A stretch of DNA of 64,000 nt from Nostoc sp. TH1S01 (lineage in GTDB: Bacteria > Cyanobacteriota > Cyanobacteriia > Cyanobacteriales > Nostocaceae): the NCBI GenBank assembly GCA_018993265.1, contig JAGKSW010000038.1, positions 16,804-80,803 of the forward strand, written 5' to 3'. The position numbers and the translations under genes were made by a program. Positions 33,526 through 61,724 of this stretch are shown here, in pieces (the stretch's first letter is position 1; every line of letters starts with the position of its first letter). The notes beneath the pieces are model-generated. The model did no database searches, had not been told where the DNA came from, and saw only the letters and a list, made by a program, of their open reading frames with translations.

Positions 33526-36500
33526 CTAAACGACGGTTGTAAAGTTACCAGTTCCTAAAGTACCTGTTAACCCTGTTACTTCAACAATGGCATCAGTATT
33601 AGCATTAAACGTGGCTGTAGCATCATTAATAGCTACAAAGGTACGGCTACCAAAGGTAAATTGAGCAGCAAAGTTAGCTGCAAAATTAGTAGAATTTAAT
33701 TTGGCTGCAATTCCAGTTGCATCCAGTGTTGCAACAGATCCCGCATTAGAGAACCCAGCTCGTGTAGTGGAAACGAGGAATTTATCTTCAATAGCACTAA
33801 AGTCTGTAATCACATCAAAGCTGTTGAGAAGAGAATCAGCTAAGTTGCGGTAATCAAAAAGGTCAGATCCAACTCCCCCGGTTAAAGTATCTTTTCCAAG
33901 TCCCCCAGTTAGTGTATCATTCCCCCCCAGTCCACTCAGACTATCATTGCCATCTTCACCAAGAAGAACATCCCGATAATTACTACCTATAAGATTGTCA
34001 TTTCCTCCCCTACCTTGTAAGTTTAATGCTGATCCGTCCTCTGGGGGAAGTTCTAGGTTATTAAAACTAATACTATCGTCATAGATAGTACCTATAACTG
34101 ATTCAACGTTTCTGACATTCTGACTGTTACTAATTGTGAGAGAAATTCCTGTCGCATTCTGTGAATAATTCACCTGGTCATATCCTGTCCCTCCATCTAT
34201 AAAGTCATTAATTCCACCAGGTACAATAAAATCATTCCCTTCTCCAGCATATATTTCATTGGTTCCATTATTACGTCCCGCCAGTAGATCATCACCAGCA
34301 AGACCGTATATTTTAACAGCGCCAACAGTGGGGTTATTTTGAGCAACATAGATGTAATCCCCAGCAATAGTTCCAGTGTAGCTTGCACCACTAACTGCTA
34401 CCTTACTGGTATTGTTGCGTGTTTGACCGATAACACCGTGAGACGCATTGTTAGTGAACAAACTTCCAATGAATTCCGTTAATCCAATATTTTGACCATT
34501 TATTACTGGTAAAAGGTTTGGATCTATATAAATTCTCAGAAAAGTTGAGGGTTCATTTGTTTGGTTGTTGTACGCTACTTCTACACCCGTTCCATTAATA
34601 CCCGACACAAATGTGTATCTATAAGATTGATTACCAGTTAGCTTAGGAAGTGTGATGGTATCTATCCCTGGTTGAAAATCCATAATTTCTACCAAGGATC
34701 GTTTTTGCGTTATGTTAACTGTTCCCCAACCATTACTTCCCTGTCCTTCAAAGAAATTACCGATAGCCGCTAAATTATTTTGATATTCCTCTATGTCTAA
34801 GTTGTAGTTGGCTTCGATATTAGCTAGATCATTAGCGAGGTGTGCTGTAGTAGCGATCGCATCAATTACCCCATCCGCTAAACCAGTAATATCTGCTGCC
34901 TGTGCTACTGCTGCTGCATAATCAATGCCAGCACTAATAAAAGCGGCACTAGTATCCGCAATAAGACGTTGCTCTCTAACATCCCAATCAGGTTCTACTA
35001 ACAGTTCAGCTAACTCTTTTAGTTTACCTGCATTGAAATCTAGTCCTACTGTACCAGATGATCCTTCAATAGATATGTTGAATATATCACTCCCTTGAGA
35101 ACCGTAAACTTTTTGTGATGTAGTTAAGCCATCATAGGATCTGAGTTGAAAAATGTCTGGGCCAAAACCTCCAAGAACACTAATATCAAATTTTTCAGGT
35201 TTTCCCAAAACAAAAAACTGAGAATCTGTATTGTTTCCGGTTGCATTATACTCTTTGATTTCAATAATGCCTCTTAAAGAATAGGTACTGTTGTAATCAT
35301 TCCATTTGCCAGCAGCACCAAAATTCATCCCCACATAATCTTCGTCACCCGCATTATTTGGTTCATTGGTAAAGAAGTTCCTGTAAGTAGAGGTTTCACC
35401 GCTCACCCACGTGAATTTAGTACCATCTGTAAAGGCTTCTGTAACCTTATCTGTCAGTCCAATCCACAGTTGTTCACTACCACCAAAGGTATTAACTAGC
35501 CAGTCTTGCTCGGCTTGAGAGTTAATGGTGACAAGATTTCCACCTAAACTTTGTGCTTGAGCTTGAGCTTGTTCCCATGTACCAGATCCAGTTAAGAGAT
35601 ATTTACTGCCGTTCCATTCATAAAACTTGTTTTCAATAATGCCTCTCGAAGAATAGGTACTGTTGTAATCATTCCATTTGCCAGCAGCACCAAAATTCAT
35701 CCCCACATAATCTTCGTTACCCGCATTATTTGGTTCATTGGTATAAAAGTTCCTGTAAGTAGAGGTTTCACCGCTCACCCACGTGAATTTAGTACCATCT
35801 GTAAAGGCTTCTGTAACCTTATCTGTCAGTCCAATCCACAGTTGTTCACTACCACCAAAGGTATTAACTAGCCAGTCTTGTTCGGCTTGAGAGTTAATGG
35901 TGACAAGATTTCCACCTAAACTCTGTGCCTGGGCTTGAGTTTGTTCCCATGTACTAGAGGTACTACTAAGTCTATAGATAGACCCATTAAACTGGTAGAC
36001 AGCATTGGGGAAGGGAAGAGTGTTAATAGTACCGTAAGTATTACTATAGTTTGTGCCAATGGCTTGGGCTGTAGCTCCATCTCTAACAAAAATGTTCGCA
36101 CCAAGACCTTGACCATTATTTGCACCAGTACCACCTGTGGCTGAGTTGACAGTAAAAACACTGTTGAGTAGGGTTAAACTTGCCCCAGAGTTGACGAAAA
36201 TAGCACCGCCTAGACCAGCGCCACCGCCGCCTCGACCACCATCAGCCCCAGCGACACCACTGGTATCACCATACCATTCACCTCGTTTACCACCAGAACC
36301 ACCAGCACCATTGCCACCGAATTGACCAGCAGTACCAGCACCGCCGCCAGCGCCCTGAAATTTATCTGACCATTTAGCACCAGCACCACCACCGCCGCCG
36401 CCGCCGCCGCCACCAGCACCAAAACCACCAGCACCACCAGCACCACCAGCACCACCATTCCAACTCCAAGCACCACCATTATGGTCGCCACCGGCACCAC

Positions 36501-37659
36501 CGCCGCCGCCGCCACCGCCTACTCCAAAATTACCCACAGCACCAGCACCACCAGCACCACCAACATTACCCTCTACTACATTCCCTCCAGCACCACCAGA
36601 TGAAGTAGAACCACCATTTAATCCTCCACCTCCACTTCCAGCTTGACCATTATCACCATTACGATTTGTACCGTAATATTCTCCCCCATTACCACCTCTA
36701 CCTGCATTGCCGTTGGCATTACCCCCAACTGCCCGATTTCCGGTAAAGGTCACATTATTAAGGGTGACATTCCCTGCGTTAATAAACAGCGCACCTCCAG
36801 CACCTAAACCACCGCCACCACCATTATTACCATCGCCTCCTCTGGCTAAACCATTAGCAAAGGTTAGTCTAGAGAAAGTAACATTAGCCCCATTCACTGA
36901 AATAATCTGACGGGCATTTTGACCATTAATAGTAGTGTTACCATCATCAACAAAATTAATGTCGTTACCTGTATTAAGATTGCCGAGGGAACTGTTGAGA
37001 AAAATTGTGCCACTAACGCCAGTTAAATCAATGGTATCCACTCCAGGAGTATTACCAGCATTAATGATGGCTTGGCGCAAAGAACCAGCACCACTATCGT
37101 TATTGTTGGTAACTGTGATGATAGGGTTATTCTGCTCAATCTCAACAACCTGACCATCCAAAGTCACCGTCGCACTATCATCCTCAGCCTTCAAAACCGC
37201 TAACTCTTCCTGACTTAAACTCTCCCCTTGCACCAACCTGGCAAAAATATCACCTTCATCCCCTGCTGCATCAGCTAGATTAATTCGTGCATCAAAAAAA
37301 TGCCCGATTTCCTCCAGCAACACGGCGGTAATAGCACCTGTATTCTGAGCATTTTGACTAATAAACTCAGCAGCTAAATAAATCTTGCCCGTAGTGATCG
37401 AAAAAGCACCATTCGCACCATTAATATCACTACTATTCACAATCTCGATGCTAGGGATATCATTAAAATCCCCTTGAGCAAAACTATCAAATAATGAATT
37501 AGCTTTTACCTGATCAAAACCAGAACCAAATGCAGTCTCCAATTTCTGGCTATACCCTGCATCATTGCGGAAGTTCCTGAGATATGAATGGGTATTGTTT
37601 AACGCATCTTGCAGTATTTCATCAATCTCAGAAAAGTTTAAAAATAAATTGTTGGTCAT
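33526..37659 (-). CDS. Large secreted RTX protein with Gly-rich region and two C-type lectin domains
   Basis: The 1377-residue protein has no N-terminal signal. In order: an N-terminal domain with LLEEIGHFFDARIN (to about 180), a parallel beta-helix start (NNNDSGAGSLRQAIINAG, about 190-280), a Gly-rich stretch (about 280-500), two near-identical C-type lectin domains (about 567-675 and 691-799) each with EPNNAG and KWND ligand motifs of the carbohydrate/Ca2+ site, a linker, and RTX nonapeptide repeats (GGLGKDTLTGGVGSD) near 1100-1285. This is the plan of calcium-dependent adhesins or matrix proteins exported by type I secretion, which uses the C-terminus. No secretion genes are adjacent. It is divergent from the STAND gene at 38041. 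Confidence 0.85.
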   Translation of the reverse strand: MTNNLFLNFSEIDEILQDALNNTHSYLRNFRNDAGYSQKLETAFGSGFDQVKANSLFDSFAQGDFNDIPSIEIVNSSDINGANGAFSITTGKIYLAAEFISQNAQNTGAITAVLLEEIGHFFDARINLADAAGDEGDIFARLVQGESLSQEELAVLKAEDDSATVTLDGQVVEIEQNNPIITVTNNNDSGAGSLRQAIINAGNTPGVDTIDLTGVSGTIFLNSSLGNLNTGNDINFVDDGNTTINGQNARQIISVNGANVTFSRLTFANGLARGGDGNNGGGGGLGAGGALFINAGNVTLNNVTFTGNRAVGGNANGNAGRGGNGGEYYGTNRNGDNGQAGSGGGGLNGGSTSSGGAGGNVVEGNVGGAGGAGAVGNFGVGGGGGGGGAGGDHNGGAWSWNGGAGGAGGAGGFGAGGGGGGGGGGAGAKWSDKFQGAGGGAGTAGQFGGNGAGGSGGKRGEWYGDTSGVAGADGGRGGGGAGLGGAIFVNSGASLTLLNSVFTVNSATGGTGANNGQGLGANIFVRDGATAQAIGTNYSNTYGTINTLPFPNAVYQFNGSIYRLSSTSSTWEQTQAQAQSLGGNLVTINSQAEQDWLVNTFGGSEQLWIGLTDKVTEAFTDGTKFTWVSGETSTYRNFYTNEPNNAGNEDYVGMNFGAAGKWNDYNSTYSSRGIIENKFYEWNGSKYLLTGSGTWEQAQAQAQSLGGNLVTINSQAEQDWLVNTFGGSEQLWIGLTDKVTEAFTDGTKFTWVSGETSTYRNFFTNEPNNAGDEDYVGMNFGAAGKWNDYNSTYSLRGIIEIKEYNATGNNTDSQFFVLGKPEKFDISVLGGFGPDIFQLRSYDGLTTSQKVYGSQGSDIFNISIEGSSGTVGLDFNAGKLKELAELLVEPDWDVREQRLIADTSAAFISAGIDYAAAVAQAADITGLADGVIDAIATTAHLANDLANIEANYNLDIEEYQNNLAAIGNFFEGQGSNGWGTVNITQKRSLVEIMDFQPGIDTITLPKLTGNQSYRYTFVSGINGTGVEVAYNNQTNEPSTFLRIYIDPNLLPVINGQNIGLTEFIGSLFTNNASHGVIGQTRNNTSKVAVSGASYTGTIAGDYIYVAQNNPTVGAVKIYGLAGDDLLAGRNNGTNEIYAGEGNDFIVPGGINDFIDGGTGYDQVNYSQNATGISLTISNSQNVRNVESVIGTIYDDSISFNNLELPPEDGSALNLQGRGGNDNLIGSNYRDVLLGEDGNDSLSGLGGNDTLTGGLGKDTLTGGVGSDLFDYRNLADSLLNSFDVITDFSAIEDKFLVSTTRAGFSNAGSVATLDATGIAAKLNSTNFAANFAAQFTFGSRTFVAINDATATFNANTDAIVEVTGLTGTLGTGNFTTVV
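35263..35584 (-). repeat. Lectin-domain duplication, copy 2
   Basis: Near-identical to 35635-35956, with a period of 372 bases (124 codons). It encodes the second C-type lectin domain of the RTX protein. Confidence 0.9.
35635..35956 (-). repeat. Lectin-domain duplication, copy 1
   Basis: Encodes the first C-type lectin domain. Few base differences from copy 2 mean the duplication is recent or homogenised. Confidence 0.9.
36200..36700 (-). repeat. Gly-rich coding region with GCC/CCA triplet runs
   Basis: Runs such as CACCGCCGCCGCCGCCGCC (36388 region) and alternating CACCAGCAC units encode the Gly/Ala-rich segment of the RTX protein. Such triplet tracts are prone to length change. Confidence 0.8.
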
Positions 37660-38040: not shown

Positions 38041-38340
38041 ATGCCAAGGTCATTGAAAGTTCAAGATGACTGTATTGATCAAGTCAAGGTAGCACTGACA
38101 CGTAATGGCTACCCCACCCAAAAAAGCCTTGCTTATGACACAGGACTAGCTCTAGCTACAGTTAGTAAGTTCCTCACTGGAAAACCAGTTGGTCATGCAA
38201 ATTTTGAAGAATTATGTCGTAAATTACAGCTAGATTGGAGAGAAGTCTCTACACTTAATTCTCATTCTCAATTTAACTATCTAAGTAATAACACAAAATT
38301 AATTGCAAAAAAAAAACACAAATTGGGGTGCGGCAATTGA
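38041..38340 (+). CDS. HTH N-terminal part of a STAND protein, ends at A10 frameshift
   Basis: The 99-residue frame encodes a helix-turn-helix domain (QKSLAYDTGLALATVSKFLTGKPVGHANFEELCRKLQL) of the type that opens cyanobacterial HTH-NB-ARC proteins. It stops at 38338, shortly after a run of ten A (38307-38316). Removing one A joins it in frame to the NB-ARC frame at 38303 as AKKNTNWGAAIDISSFYGR, exactly the expected junction. The two frames are therefore one gene of about 518 residues, broken or read through by slippage at the A-run. Confidence 0.8.
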   Translation: MPRSLKVQDDCIDQVKVALTRNGYPTQKSLAYDTGLALATVSKFLTGKPVGHANFEELCRKLQLDWREVSTLNSHSQFNYLSNNTKLIAKKKHKLGCGN

Positions 38341-39598
38341 TATTTCCTCATTTTATGGACGCTCACAAGAACTGACACAACTAAAGTCATGGATTATAGA
38401 AGATGGCTGTCGCCTAGTGAAAGTTTTAGGTATGGCTGGTGTAGGGAAAACGACTTTAGCCACTAAATTGGCAAAATCAATTCAAGACCAGTTTGAGTAT
38501 GTGATTTGGCGAGCCATACAACATACTTCTTCAGCAAATGACCTTGTGACTGAGTTTGTATCATTTTTGTCCCATCAGCAAGAAAGCAAACCCGACATTA
38601 ATCTGCTGATTCATTATCTACGTAAATCCCAATGTCTATTAATTTTAGACAACCTAGAAACAACCTTAGATGCCGACTTAATGATCAACTATCGCTCAGG
38701 TTATCAGATATATAGTGATTTAATCCGAGCAATTAGCACAACCAACCATAATAGCTGTCTAATTTTAACCTCTAGAGAAAAGCCGGCTGAAATCGCCACC
38801 TTAGAGAGAACAGCTTTTAAGGTACGTTCCCTCAACTTAGAGGGTTCTCAAGAGGTAGCCTTACACTTACTGCAATCAAAGCAACTGCTCGGTTCAGAGG
38901 AGCAAAAACAGAAATTATGCCTTCTCTACAGTCATAACCCTTTACAAATCAATATGGTAGCTAATGCCATCATCAAGCTATTTGATGGCAAGATAGACAA
39001 ATTCCTAGAACAAAATACTTTATTGCTCAGTAACATCAGCCAATTACTCAAACAACAGTTACATCGTCTTTCTGAGCTTGAATGGCATATTATGTACTGT
39101 ATAGCTATTAATCAACAATTAACAAGTATTGATACCTTAGCTAAAAGCATTTGGTTGACTGTTCCTAAATACCAACTTTTGAACGCTATAGAAAGATTGA
39201 TTTGGCGTTCATTAATTGAAAAACAAGGTCAAGGTTATACCCAAAAGCCAGTGGTGATGGAGTATGTAGTGGAGCGGTTTAAAGAGCAGATTTTAAGTGA
39301 ACTGATAAATAAAGAATTTTTCCTGTTTAATCAACATCTACTGCTTACAGAAAACAGCAAATATTGCGGTATAGAAAATCAGACACCAGGAATTTTGCAA
39401 GGCATTGCAGACCAGTTTTGTAATTATTGTCCGTCCAGAATAGCTCTTAAAAGACACATTAAAGAAATTATAGAAGAAGTGCAAACTTTTCAGAACTGCT
39501 TATGTAAATATGGAATATCAAATTTTATTCATCTCTGCAACTATCTGGAATTTGAGTTAACGACAGCAGAACAAGAGATATTCCAACATTGCCTCTAA
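38303..39598 (+). CDS. NB-ARC (STAND) ATPase part of the same split gene
   Basis: Beginning with NWGAAIDISSFYGRSQELTQLKSW, it carries the Walker A GMAGVGKTTLA, Walker B CLLILDNLET, the TSREKP arginine motif and NPLQINMVA, all intact. Winged-helix and helical segments follow, then about 130 residues up to a stop at 39598. Related cyanobacterial STAND proteins go on with WD40 or pentapeptide repeats, which are absent here, so the sensor part is missing or lies in the terminal region. STAND ATPases act as switches in signalling, defence or cell death. The track start at 38303 is a TTG inside the A-run junction and is not an independent start. Confidence 0.85.
   Translation: MQKKNTNWGAAIDISSFYGRSQELTQLKSWIIEDGCRLVKVLGMAGVGKTTLATKLAKSIQDQFEYVIWRAIQHTSSANDLVTEFVSFLSHQQESKPDINLLIHYLRKSQCLLILDNLETTLDADLMINYRSGYQIYSDLIRAISTTNHNSCLILTSREKPAEIATLERTAFKVRSLNLEGSQEVALHLLQSKQLLGSEEQKQKLCLLYSHNPLQINMVANAIIKLFDGKIDKFLEQNTLLLSNISQLLKQQLHRLSELEWHIMYCIAINQQLTSIDTLAKSIWLTVPKYQLLNAIERLIWRSLIEKQGQGYTQKPVVMEYVVERFKEQILSELINKEFFLFNQHLLLTENSKYCGIENQTPGILQGIADQFCNYCPSRIALKRHIKEIIEEVQTFQNCLCKYGISNFIHLCNYLEFELTTAEQEIFQHCL
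38307..38316 (+). other. A10 run at the frame junction (possible slippage site)
   Basis: Ten consecutive A lie where the HTH frame must shift +1 to enter the NB-ARC frame. One A fewer restores a single reading frame. Confidence 0.9.
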
Positions 39599-57552: not shown

Positions 57553-57627
57553 GTGATTAACTTTGATAAGCGTCAATTTCTCACCCAAGTTAAAAATCCA
57601 GTTCTAGCTAAGGTAATTCTAAAGTGA
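57553..57627 (+). CDS. Possible 24-residue leader ORF overlapping the actin-like start
   Basis: GTG ATT AAC ... AAG TGA reads 24 codons and ends in GTGA overlapping the GTG start at 57624. AAGG lies about ten bases upstream. It is below the track limit. A translation-coupling leader is possible but chance is not excluded. Confidence 0.3.
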   Translation: MINFDKRQFLTQVKNPVLAKVILK

Positions 57628-60600
57628 CTTCCCGCGCTGATGAAATTCAAAAACTGATCGCAGATATTGATAACTTACTCACTAACAATGGTAAGCGACT
57701 GCCGAAGTTGCTGTCTGGTCAAGCGCCAGAAGCCAGAGAGGTTTTAGAGCGAGTTCGCAACTTTTTGGTGAATTTGCAAGCAACTGAGAATTTACATGGC
57801 AATATTCCCCAGCCAACGGGACAGGTACAACATTCACCTTTGTTGGCGAAATTTGCTGAACAAGTTAATCAGCCATCGTCAGTAGAGTTATATCAATCTG
57901 AGTCAGGAGAAAATAGTGGACTGAGTAGCCAACTAAAAACCGAATTGGCGACATTAATTCAGCCATTGCAAGCAGAATTGACAGCACTGTTGCAAGAACG
58001 CTCGACGCTGATGCAGGAAATTCGGCAGTTGGAGCAAAAGCGGCTGCAAAATTACTCTTTAAGTCAACAGTTGGCTAATCAAGAGCAAATTATTGGGGAA
58101 TTTTTACAGGTGTTGATGAGTCGCCTTGTCCCCACTGTTGCACCGCATATCAACTCAACTGCGGCGTATGATTTTCATGCTGCGAGTCCAAGTCATCACA
58201 ACAGTATAGAATTCACCTCGGCTGCAAGTTTGCCTTCATTAGAATCATCAGCGCAGTTAGAACGGTTAAGTCAGTTTGCTAAGGATTTAGACCAACGTTT
58301 ACTGTCACTTGATGGTACGGTAAATGTTGTATTTGAGGCACTTCAGCGCAATATTAATACTTATCACGAATCTTTGTCGCAAGCACTGGCGAGAATGCAT
58401 AGTACAGGCTTGCAAGGTGAACAGTTGCTAGTGAGTTTCCTGAATAATTGGACTCAGCAATTGCAGCAACATATTAACAATATTCCAGCGGCGGGAGCAG
58501 TTAAAGAAACATTACCAGCGCCGCGATCGCCATTCCCAACTCCCGCAGAGACTGCTACTGTAGAAACTATCCAACCAGTAGTTATTACTAATACTGAAGC
58601 TGCTAACCCACCACTAGAATTACCACAGCCAGAAGTAGAATTAGCCTCTGATGTGGCGGCTAACGATTTGGATGCTATGTTACTAGAATTGACTGGTAGC
58701 ATTTCGCCAGCGACGGATGCTGCTGCGCCTCTGAAACTGGAGGGGTTGGAAGATTTAGAAACATTGGCGGATGATTCCCCAGCACCACTAACTGCGCCGA
58801 CACTTTTACCAACACTAGAAGCCGCAACACCACCGCCAGAAATCTCTGGGATGTTTAGTGATTTATCGCCACCAACTCTAGAGTTGAATGATGAGGTAGA
58901 TCAACTTTACGCCAGTTTATTTCATGTCAGTTCTGTGACTCAACTCAGTGTTGCACCAACTCCCACAGAACCAACCCCAGATACTTCTGCAAACATTCCT
59001 GATACCACTCCTCCCGCAGAACCAGAAACATCAATTACAACTGTTCCAGAAGATATTTCTAACTTAAATCCTAGCGACACCCCAACCGCGCCTTTATTTG
59101 AGGAAAATGCCGACTTACCAGAGTCGATATTCACTCAGTCAGATGCAGGTTTGTTAGAAACGAATAATTCTCTACCACAAAACACAGCAACTCATTCGCC
59201 GCAATTTATCGATTTATCATCAGATTTTCAACAAAAGTTATTTTTTGAAGAAGAACCTGATTTTTCCAATACTACACTCAGTTATTCTCATACCATTCGA
59301 GAAAATATTCCTGTTCAGCCAGAGCATACTGACACTATTACTTCTTTAAGTGAACTGTTTGCAGATGCAAGTAGTGAAGAGAATTTATGGCCTGGTTTGT
59401 CTCCTTCAGAAATTGCACTGACTTTAGATGAACCCAGTAATGATGTTGCAGTTGCATCTGAGGCGGAAGCACAGGAAAATGTGTCGGATAGATATATTGC
59501 TGCTTCTCCCCAGGAGAATTTGCTTGCGCCAGAGGTAATGCAGTCGGGAAACATACCGGATATTTCTTTGAATGAAGAACAGTTGCAGCAATTAAATCAA
59601 GATTTAGCTAACTTTGATGAGTTGCTCAACTATCAGTCAACAGATATCTACAGTTTGGCAGATACCGAACAACCGCCGAATGTCACGTTTTCCAATTCTC
59701 AAACCCTAGACCATACGCCAAATGTGGCTTTTTCGCGTCCGGCTGTACCACCGGTTGCACCTATATCATCACCACAAACAGATGTTGATTTAAACTTCTC
59801 TCCCGCCAACGAAAAAAAAAAGGAAGACACATCTGGTTCCAGTTCTCCAACTCAGATAGAACTGACCGTCGATGTGCATAACTCGGTTTGGTATTTAGGT
59901 ATTGATTTAGGCACAACTGGAATTTCTGCGGCTTTGTTAAATCGCTCTCAGTCGGTGGTATACCCAATATACTGGTCAGCAGAAAATATTCCTGGCGCGA
60001 CTTCTTTTCAACATTCATTTCGTTTACCTGCGGAAGTTTATCTGCCGAATGCTTCAGTTTCTCAAGGTAGCAGTAATGTTAAAAGTAGCCAATGTTCCGC
60101 ACAGTTAAAGCCTTATTTACAAATAGCTGTCCCCTACAAAAGTGAAGAGCAAAAATGGGAACCTGTACTGCAATTCAATGAATTTTCGGCAGGGCCATTA
60201 ATTTGGGTGGTACGATCGCTTTCTAAATTACTATTAACCCTCAAATCCGATCGCCAGAGTACCACCCAAGGTTTAATTGCGATGGCGGTGGGAATTAATC
60301 AGCCGACTTTCCACACAATTATGAGTAAAATCGCAGGGGTGATATGTACTTGCTCCGCGAGTTGGTCAGAACAATATAGATTTAATGTGCGGGAAGCTTT
60401 GCTGACGAGCAAAATTGTCCAACATCCCCAGCAAGTCTTTTTTGTGGAAGAAGCGATCGCTAGTTTAATTAGTTTATTTGATAAAAGTGACAGCCAACTC
60501 ATTCAAGTGAGCGATCGCACTGGTTTACGTCCCGTCGAAACCACAGAACCCTTACTCGGCAATACTTTGGTGATTAATATTGGCGCAACCGCCAGCGAAA

Positions 60601-61724
60601 TGGCTTTGGTTGATATCCCGGAAAATTTGCTGCAACTAGCGCACTCAGATTTTATGCTGCACAGTTTTCCCTACGCCAGCAAGGGGATAGAACAAGATAT
60701 TATTTGTCAGTTACTCATTCCGCCGAAATATCGGGAATCACGGTTAAATAATCAAGTTAATGGTCAAAAAAATACTGGTAATCCTTGGCATTGGCAATCA
60801 GCTTTTCCTGATGTAGACAAAATGCAGTGGCAAAGTTTGGGATTAGATAAATTTGATTTACCGCGAGCCGGAGAGCCTGATATTGGCGTGCGGACTCGGT
60901 TACAGCAACGGTTAGAAAGTTACGTTTTAGGACAAGCTGCTCTCGAAGCTGCCTTGGCTTTAAAGTTAATTTTGCAACATCAGGAAAACTTCACCCTAGA
61001 ATTAGCTGACCAACGCTGGATACTGCAACGGCGAGACTTAGAAAATCAAGTGTTTGTCCCCTTTGTGCGCCGACTGAACCGGGAATTGAATAAATTGCTA
61101 GTCGCACGGGGTATCCCGACAGAAGCAATTAATCAAGCCGTTTTGACTGGTGGAGTCGCATCTTTAGGAGTTGTTTATCATTGGCTACGGCAAAAACTCC
61201 CCAATGCCAAGATTATTCAAGATGCGTATTTGGGAGAAAATGGCGCACCGAATTGCAGCCGAGTTGCGTTAGGTTTGGCGATGTTACCCTTGCATTCCCA
61301 GATTTTAGAAGCACCAAGACAACAGTACACAGATTATTTTCTGTTTACAGAATTGCTGCGCCTACTGCCAGAGCGGAGTTTATCATTTAACGAAGTGCTT
61401 CAGTTGTTTGAGGGACGAGGAATTAATACAAGTATTTGTCAGCAGAGATTATTGGCATTTTTAGAAGGAGAATTACCAGCAGGGTTAATTCCATCACCAC
61501 CAGAGTCAGCATGGCTAACCCAGAATTCATCTCAGAATTTAGATTATCAGGCGATCGCAGCTGCACCATTGTTTGAAAAACAAGGAAATCTCAGCTATCG
61601 TCCCAACTCTCAGCAATTGTCCGCCTTGCGTCGCTATTTAGCCGCCGTCAAAGCCAGCACCCAGCAATCTTTAGAGGAACCATACACGGTTAACTTTGTT
61701 AAGGGAGTGGTGAGTAGGGAGTAG
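57624..61724 (+). CDS. Large protein with C-terminal actin/Hsp70-like ATPase domain, unknown function
   Basis: The 1366-residue frame starts with GTG. Residues 1-290 are helical with a likely coiled coil near 115-160 (LTALLQERSTLMQEIRQLEQKRLQ). Residues 295 to about 745 are Pro/Thr/Ser/Glu-rich and probably disordered. From about 754 a domain of the actin/Hsp70 superfamily begins: LGIDLGTTGISAALL (phosphate 1), NIGATASEMALVDI (phosphate 2) and TGGVASLGVV (adenosine loop). It ends in a helical region. The plan resembles cyanobacterial proteins of unknown role, possibly cytoskeletal or cell-division linked. No signal peptide. The neighbours give no hint. Confidence 0.85.
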   Translation: MTSRADEIQKLIADIDNLLTNNGKRLPKLLSGQAPEAREVLERVRNFLVNLQATENLHGNIPQPTGQVQHSPLLAKFAEQVNQPSSVELYQSESGENSGLSSQLKTELATLIQPLQAELTALLQERSTLMQEIRQLEQKRLQNYSLSQQLANQEQIIGEFLQVLMSRLVPTVAPHINSTAAYDFHAASPSHHNSIEFTSAASLPSLESSAQLERLSQFAKDLDQRLLSLDGTVNVVFEALQRNINTYHESLSQALARMHSTGLQGEQLLVSFLNNWTQQLQQHINNIPAAGAVKETLPAPRSPFPTPAETATVETIQPVVITNTEAANPPLELPQPEVELASDVAANDLDAMLLELTGSISPATDAAAPLKLEGLEDLETLADDSPAPLTAPTLLPTLEAATPPPEISGMFSDLSPPTLELNDEVDQLYASLFHVSSVTQLSVAPTPTEPTPDTSANIPDTTPPAEPETSITTVPEDISNLNPSDTPTAPLFEENADLPESIFTQSDAGLLETNNSLPQNTATHSPQFIDLSSDFQQKLFFEEEPDFSNTTLSYSHTIRENIPVQPEHTDTITSLSELFADASSEENLWPGLSPSEIALTLDEPSNDVAVASEAEAQENVSDRYIAASPQENLLAPEVMQSGNIPDISLNEEQLQQLNQDLANFDELLNYQSTDIYSLADTEQPPNVTFSNSQTLDHTPNVAFSRPAVPPVAPISSPQTDVDLNFSPANEKKKEDTSGSSSPTQIELTVDVHNSVWYLGIDLGTTGISAALLNRSQSVVYPIYWSAENIPGATSFQHSFRLPAEVYLPNASVSQGSSNVKSSQCSAQLKPYLQIAVPYKSEEQKWEPVLQFNEFSAGPLIWVVRSLSKLLLTLKSDRQSTTQGLIAMAVGINQPTFHTIMSKIAGVICTCSASWSEQYRFNVREALLTSKIVQHPQQVFFVEEAIASLISLFDKSDSQLIQVSDRTGLRPVETTEPLLGNTLVINIGATASEMALVDIPENLLQLAHSDFMLHSFPYASKGIEQDIICQLLIPPKYRESRLNNQVNGQKNTGNPWHWQSAFPDVDKMQWQSLGLDKFDLPRAGEPDIGVRTRLQQRLESYVLGQAALEAALALKLILQHQENFTLELADQRWILQRRDLENQVFVPFVRRLNRELNKLLVARGIPTEAINQAVLTGGVASLGVVYHWLRQKLPNAKIIQDAYLGENGAPNCSRVALGLAMLPLHSQILEAPRQQYTDYFLFTELLRLLPERSLSFNEVLQLFEGRGINTSICQQRLLAFLEGELPAGLIPSPPESAWLTQNSSQNLDYQAIAAAPLFEKQGNLSYRPNSQQLSALRRYLAAVKASTQQSLEEPYTVNFVKGVVSRE
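59812..59821 (+). other. A10 run inside the actin-like gene, before its ATPase domain
   Basis: Ten A are read in frame as GAA AAA AAA AAG (ANEKKKED) at about residue 730. Loss or gain of one A gives a stop within about 20 codons, before the ATPase domain. Confidence 0.85.

Follow-up and report, generated by a model that had tools for sequence, protein, structure and literature searches.

A putative homopolymer-controlled frame switch in an NLR-like HTH-NB-ARC STAND gene of Nostocaceae

We analyzed a gene that is split by a run of ten adenines (A10) into an HTH frame and an NB-ARC frame, and is located within a 64,000-nucleotide stretch of DNA (hereafter, the window) from a Nostocaceae-type cyanobacterium with a 7.65 Mb genome assembled in 247 contigs. 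Comparison with the homologous genes makes it moderately probable, in our assessment, that this is a phase-variable, NLR-like STAND gene whose reading frame is controlled by the length of the homopolymer and whose expression would be leaky due to RNA polymerase slippage.

The NB-ARC frame is in the +1 position relative to the HTH frame (Table 1), and with nine A instead of ten, the two become a single frame of 518 codons, with the junction ...LIAKKNTNWGAAIDISSFYGR; in the rejoined product, the HTH/NB-ARC junction is spanned by KKNTNWGAAIDISSF. The HTH open reading frame (ORF), the position of the A10 run and the one-frame offset of the NB-ARC part reported in the initial annotation proved exact on recheck, and the deletion of one A that it proposed indeed yields the joined 518-residue protein. 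The NB-ARC part scores 47.6 bits with PF00931, against a cut-off of 23.5, and contains the Walker A motif, so that, by a profile score above the curated cut-off combined with Walker A, the gene belongs to the STAND/NB-ARC (AP-ATPase) class. The HTH part scores 21.6 bits with HTH_26, slightly below the 22-bit cut-off, and its homologues were detected in more than 100 genomes of the family. Proteins of the STAND/NB-ARC class usually, although not universally, carry a C-terminal repeat sensor, such as WD40 or TPR; no such sensor was found with Pfam in the window protein, which ends about 430 amino acids past the junction. The other HTH-NB-ARC paralogues in the source genome have no internal stops.

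Table 1. Features of the split HTH-NB-ARC gene in the window
Feature	Coordinates	Strand	Description
HTH ORF (Cro/C1-type, Pfam HTH_26-like)	38041..38340	+	99 aa; ATG at 38041, stop codon at 38338-38340; the run and an out-of-frame tail form the last codons
HTH-to-NB-ARC linker	38251..38320	+	variable, predicted disordered; site of the homopolymer tracts in the clade; based on linker alignment and AF2
A10 tract (frame break)	38307..38316	+	in frame with 9 or 12 A; same A10 in G210 (L016:1505-1514)
NB-ARC (AP-ATPase/STAND) ORF	38303..39598	+	TTG start, 431 aa; contains Walker A (GMAGVGKTT); uninterrupted up to its natural C-terminal end

The A10 run on its own is unremarkable because the AT-rich window is expected, under a second-order Markov model of its sequence, to contain 1.9 A/T runs of at least 10 nucleotides, and two are present; what counts is its placement. 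Its significance comes from the presence of the same A10 and the same break in another genus, and from the concentration of runs and breaks in one linker across the subfamily. The second A10 of the window (59812-59821) lies inside an uninterrupted ORF of 1370 codons (57612-61724, + strand), where slippage would yield truncated products.

In a search of 218 genomes of the family, the closest relative found (G210) belongs to a different genus, is 78% identical over the NB-ARC frame, and carries an identical A10 that splits it at the corresponding position, the surrounding sequence being TTTGC-A10-CACATCCTGGGG in the window and ATTGC-A10-CACAAATTGGGG in G210. The recurrence of the run in an independent genome of another genus argues against the possibility that the run length was misread in sequencing or assembly, as do the lack of breaks in tract-free relatives and the presence of breaks in many assemblies, including SPAdes-type, apparently short-read, contigs of Dolichospermum sp. 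LEGE 00240 and ST_sed8; the run length in the source genome comes from a single assembly, and we regard such an error as extremely unlikely.

Both copies are OFF, that is, out of frame, and yet the dN/dS ratio between them is 0.30 (dS 0.40) over 425 NB-ARC codons and 0.44 (dS 0.26) over 70 HTH codons, values close to those for comparisons with intact genes (0.24-0.34). The NB-ARC body contains no stop in either copy, compared with the approximately 12 per lineage expected under neutral decay, a test that only sets an upper bound of about 0.04 substitutions per site on neutral evolution after the break, so that a recent break in each of the two lineages is still compatible with it. The A10 common to the two genes is equally compatible with a conserved and with a variable run length.

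The break is not universal because some relatives with shorter runs have a continuous frame. The initial annotation held that related strains with a continuous frame and no A-run would speak against slippage; the continuous frames were found, but together with runs of seven A, in G113, G114 and G164 (apparently Nostoc sp. S13), or eight A, in G136, so that this expectation was borne out in part. In G123 (apparently Nostoc foliaceum FACHB-393), an A8 run is accompanied by a break in the opposite direction and by additional lesions downstream. No close orthologue of the window gene was found in ten other genomes of its genus, the first scan of contigs with the NB-ARC frame of the window as the query produced no match, and the plasmid records contained more distant types only, mostly those with WD40. 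The neighbouring gene in the window (33526-37659, - strand) encodes a 1377-aa protein with two C-type lectin domains, and the same neighbourhood surrounds the intact HTH-NB-ARC gene of G114.

A pattern scan for runs of at least nine A upstream of a (D/N)WG motif, combined with an HTH family search, yielded 60 loci. In the tree, 36 genes form a well-supported clade from Nostocaceae (Dolichospermum, Trichormus, Sphaerospermopsis and Nostoc), which is rich in Dolichospermum and also includes genes from Trichormus NMC-1, Sphaerospermopsis and Anabaena FACHB-1237. In the usual linker of this clade, a poly-C tract of at most 11 C (C11) is followed by a short, conserved sequence similar to GCATACGCACAAATACG and then by a poly-A tract (A8-A10), which lies about 20 nucleotides downstream of the poly-C; in the subclade of the window gene, there is an A tract only, without poly-C. 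We considered the possibility that the linker is a mobile cassette and rejected it; exact GCATACGCACAAATACG is confined to the linkers of the clade in the 17 genomes scanned, and therefore, the tracts are not part of a repeat common to other genes.

The tracts are concentrated in the linkers, with 21 A/T runs of at least nine nucleotides and 20 C/G runs of at least six in 2.7 kb of linker sequence, compared to one and none, respectively, in 40.3 kb of gene bodies. Runs of at least ten C are scarce genome-wide, with two to four in each of G060 and G067, one per genome being the linker of a STAND gene. Among the 28 tract-bearing genes of the clade, 10 are in frame (ON) and 18 are OFF, matching the one third expected when lengths vary freely (binomial test against 1/3, p=0.84), whereas all eight tract-free genes are in frame (Fisher test against the tract-bearing genes, p=0.003), these p-values being indicative given that the genes are related and the tract cut-off (A>=8/C>=6) was set after inspection of the data. 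The related genes outside the 36-gene clade are in frame without exception (15 of 15). The ON and OFF states show no phylogenetic signal, with 9 changes on the tree against 5-10 in shuffles. Thus, the class of explanation offered in the initial annotation, slippage or phase variation, is strongly backed by the comparison, namely, by the shared break, the variable A and C runs, the contrast between random and intact frames and the intact OFF copies, with the reservation that the break is not universal; the annotation, focused on a single A-run, missed the subfamily-wide extent of the phenomenon and the involvement of poly-C.

Length variation is seen in the genes of G059, G056 and G058 (the latter apparently Dolichospermum sp. 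LEGE 00240), which have nearly identical bodies (NB-ARC dN ~0, dS ~0.05); their linkers are distinguished by a single substitution and by tract lengths of C10A10 (OFF), C9A9 (ON) and C7A10 (OFF), respectively. An intragenic homopolymer that sets the frame is the hallmark of simple-sequence-repeat phase-variable (contingency) genes, and it is present here; length variation in near-identical alleles, another such hallmark, is found in these three genes, and for the window gene, A10 alone was seen in both close copies. To restore a continuous frame, changing the length of one tract is enough in 16 of the 19 OFF genes, and both tracts have to change in two; in the remaining one, neither change suffices.

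These observations have to be weighed against the possibility that homopolymers, which are known indel hotspots, simply break the frame in an unconstrained linker, the OFF copies being young null alleles on the way to gene loss, without any regulatory role. A one-third ON rate is what an unselected frame would give and is equally expected if the genes are dispensable, and the absence of stops excludes only neutral evolution beyond the bound given above. Some clade members have shortened C-termini (NB-ARC part of 221-241 aa), and a few copies are clearly decayed (L113) or contain further lesions (L095). Nevertheless, in 18 of the 19 OFF genes, the NB-ARC ORF is unbroken over 221 aa or more, with the same C-terminal length classes as the ON genes (in L088-L147, approximately 221-241, 314-336 and 413-435 aa past the junction), the window gene and G210, both OFF, show the dN/dS ratio of intact pairs, and long C runs persist across the clade while being absent elsewhere in the same genes. 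On balance, gene loss at a mutational hotspot appears unlikely.

In three pairs of clade genes (L119/L122, L106/L124 and L106/L131), the HTH part seems to have been exchanged by recombination upstream of the tracts because the HTH parts are only 77-79% identical, compared to 91-98% for the linker and NB-ARC.

Variable tract length in near-identical genes has been described as a sign of replicational slippage, and a constant run in homologues as a sign of transcriptional slippage (PMC1088944). Programmed transcriptional slippage would maintain the tracts for a fixed mix of transcripts, with a constant ratio of HTH-only to full-length product whatever the genomic frame, and with neutral variation in DNA length. 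Conservation of A10 in two genera at dS 0.40, with the out-of-frame part under purifying selection, is compatible with such a role, and for IS elements of Nostoc sp. PCC 7120, slippage has been proposed to occur at runs of A8-A10, with transcriptional slippage also described at A9 in Thermus dnaX (PMC1088944). Of the two features expected of programmed slippage, a conserved run and a conserved downstream frame, the A10 is kept in the sister genus, but within the clade, neither the run length nor the ON/OFF state is constant, and widely varying lengths in near-identical genes are the published mark of the replicational process (PMC1088944). Moreover, breaks caused by poly-C, and those involving both tracts (two genes), would be poorly served by polymerase slippage at A runs. 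We consider programmed transcriptional slippage as the main function of the tracts to be fairly unlikely.

The direction of the shift bears on the translational alternatives. The window gene requires a +1 (or -2) shift, and OFF genes occupy both other frames, which can be accommodated by slippage indels and not by programmed -1 ribosomal frameshifting; the latter was rejected as a general answer given that the NB-ARC part of both the window gene and G210 is in the +1 frame. Alternatively, the two ORFs could encode separate proteins through translational coupling, the NB-ARC part starting from the TTG at 38303. Both the window gene and G210 indeed have a TTG CAA in the NB-ARC frame, immediately ahead of the run. 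This explanation is very unlikely because 15 of the 19 OFF genes have no in-frame start that lies past the upstream stop and ahead of the NB-ARC motif, the exceptions being the window gene, G210, L110 and L130 only; in addition, the orthologues are fused, and the two ORFs overlap by 38 nucleotides.

Structural modeling places the tract in a region where length changes could be absorbed. In the AF2 model of a homologue (L196), the HTH (residues 1-70) has a pLDDT of about 88, and residues 73-87, the tract-bearing linker, are of low confidence (pLDDT ~40), so that the tract probably falls in a disordered linker between the HTH and the ATPase, where a few variable residues would therefore be tolerated. 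In a Foldseek search, the best matches of a homologue model were plant NLR resistosomes, Apaf-1 and CED-4; given the mean pLDDT of 65 and the low TM-scores, these matches indicate the fold class only. PADLOC detected no defence-model match over most of the protein, with weak partial matches to PDC-S27 (1.5e-4) and to IetA (9.5e-6) over the ATPase; a PDB sequence search was uninformative, and a scan for promoters and terminators revealed none above chance.

We propose a DNA-level switch with leaky OFF alleles on the grounds that variable tracts mark replicational slippage, and A8-A10 runs are proposed slippage sites (PMC1088944). The proteins of the clade consist of an N-terminal HTH, a probably disordered linker and NB-ARC, without a WD40 tail, and under this scenario, the linker tracts would act as the frame switch. 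Slipped-strand mispairing during replication would alter tract length, and lineages would alternate, presumably reversibly, between ON, the HTH-NB-ARC fusion, and OFF, an HTH-only peptide of about 90-150 aa. The switch would involve poly-C plus poly-A in Dolichospermum and close genera, and poly-A alone in the window gene and in its sister from G210; the length found in both is A10 (OFF). RNA polymerase slips at runs of A8-A10 as well, so that OFF would be a low-output rather than a null state, with some full-length protein probably produced from nine-A mRNAs. The most likely role of such a switch would be bet-hedging of a costly immune or cell-death-like regulator. More tentatively, and with slightly less than even confidence, we suggest that the entire HTH-NB-ARC clade in filamentous bloom-forming cyanobacteria could be phase-variable via paired poly-C and poly-A tracts. 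Populations would then be mosaics of cells that differ in which of their immune or regulatory ATPases are armed, and the basal level of expression would be set by transcriptional slippage at the A tract.

Pathogens provide the best-known examples of homopolymer phase variation, in surface and restriction-modification genes. The genes described here resemble the poly-G/C and poly-A contingency loci of Neisseria, Campylobacter and Helicobacter in having an intragenic homopolymer that varies in length between close relatives, ON and OFF states set by the frame, and an intact remainder of the gene. Unlike those loci, however, they encode an intracellular NLR-like STAND ATPase rather than a surface or modification protein, belong to filamentous cyanobacteria, and often carry two tracts (C and A) in series, and their switching is proposed from sequence comparison. 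With the IS elements of Nostoc sp. PCC 7120, which come from the same bacterial family, and with Thermus dnaX, they share an A8-A10 run at the frame junction (PMC1088944), but they are not transposases, their tracts vary in length and often include poly-C, and slippage at them is putative. The closest architectural counterparts are the cyanobacterial HTH-NB-ARC-WD40 STAND proteins, such as the ~1200-aa NB-ARC/WD-40 proteins of Calothrix and Nostoc plasmids, which have the same HTH, (Q)DWG junction and NB-ARC; in contrast to the clade, these have a WD40 tail and linkers without homopolymer tracts, and in the sampled set, they are always in frame. Apaf-1, CED-4 and plant NLRs share NB-ARC with the clade by sequence profile and fold class, whereas the clade proteins have an HTH in place of CARD, TIR or CC and lack a repeat sensor.

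A search of the open-access literature recovered pathogen genes with homopolymer phase variation and IS elements with slippage, but nothing on phase variation of NB-ARC/STAND genes or in the genus Dolichospermum. If the proposed mechanism is correct, filamentous cyanobacteria would hedge an immune or cell-fate switch across cells or filaments, and many such genes that are now read as pseudogenes would be switchable loci. Short HTH ORFs of 81-113 aa were detected in other families of the order (L178-L181, from G365, G462, G472 and G382, respectively) and may represent further split genes. In genomes of the Dolichospermum clade, long runs also occur at intragenic frame breaks in genes for a secreted protein (G11; L192, G067:C1:2110493), a signal-peptide protein (C10; L193, G060:C1:2009514) and a SAM methyltransferase (C10; L194, G067:C1:4948973), which suggests genus-wide contingency loci.
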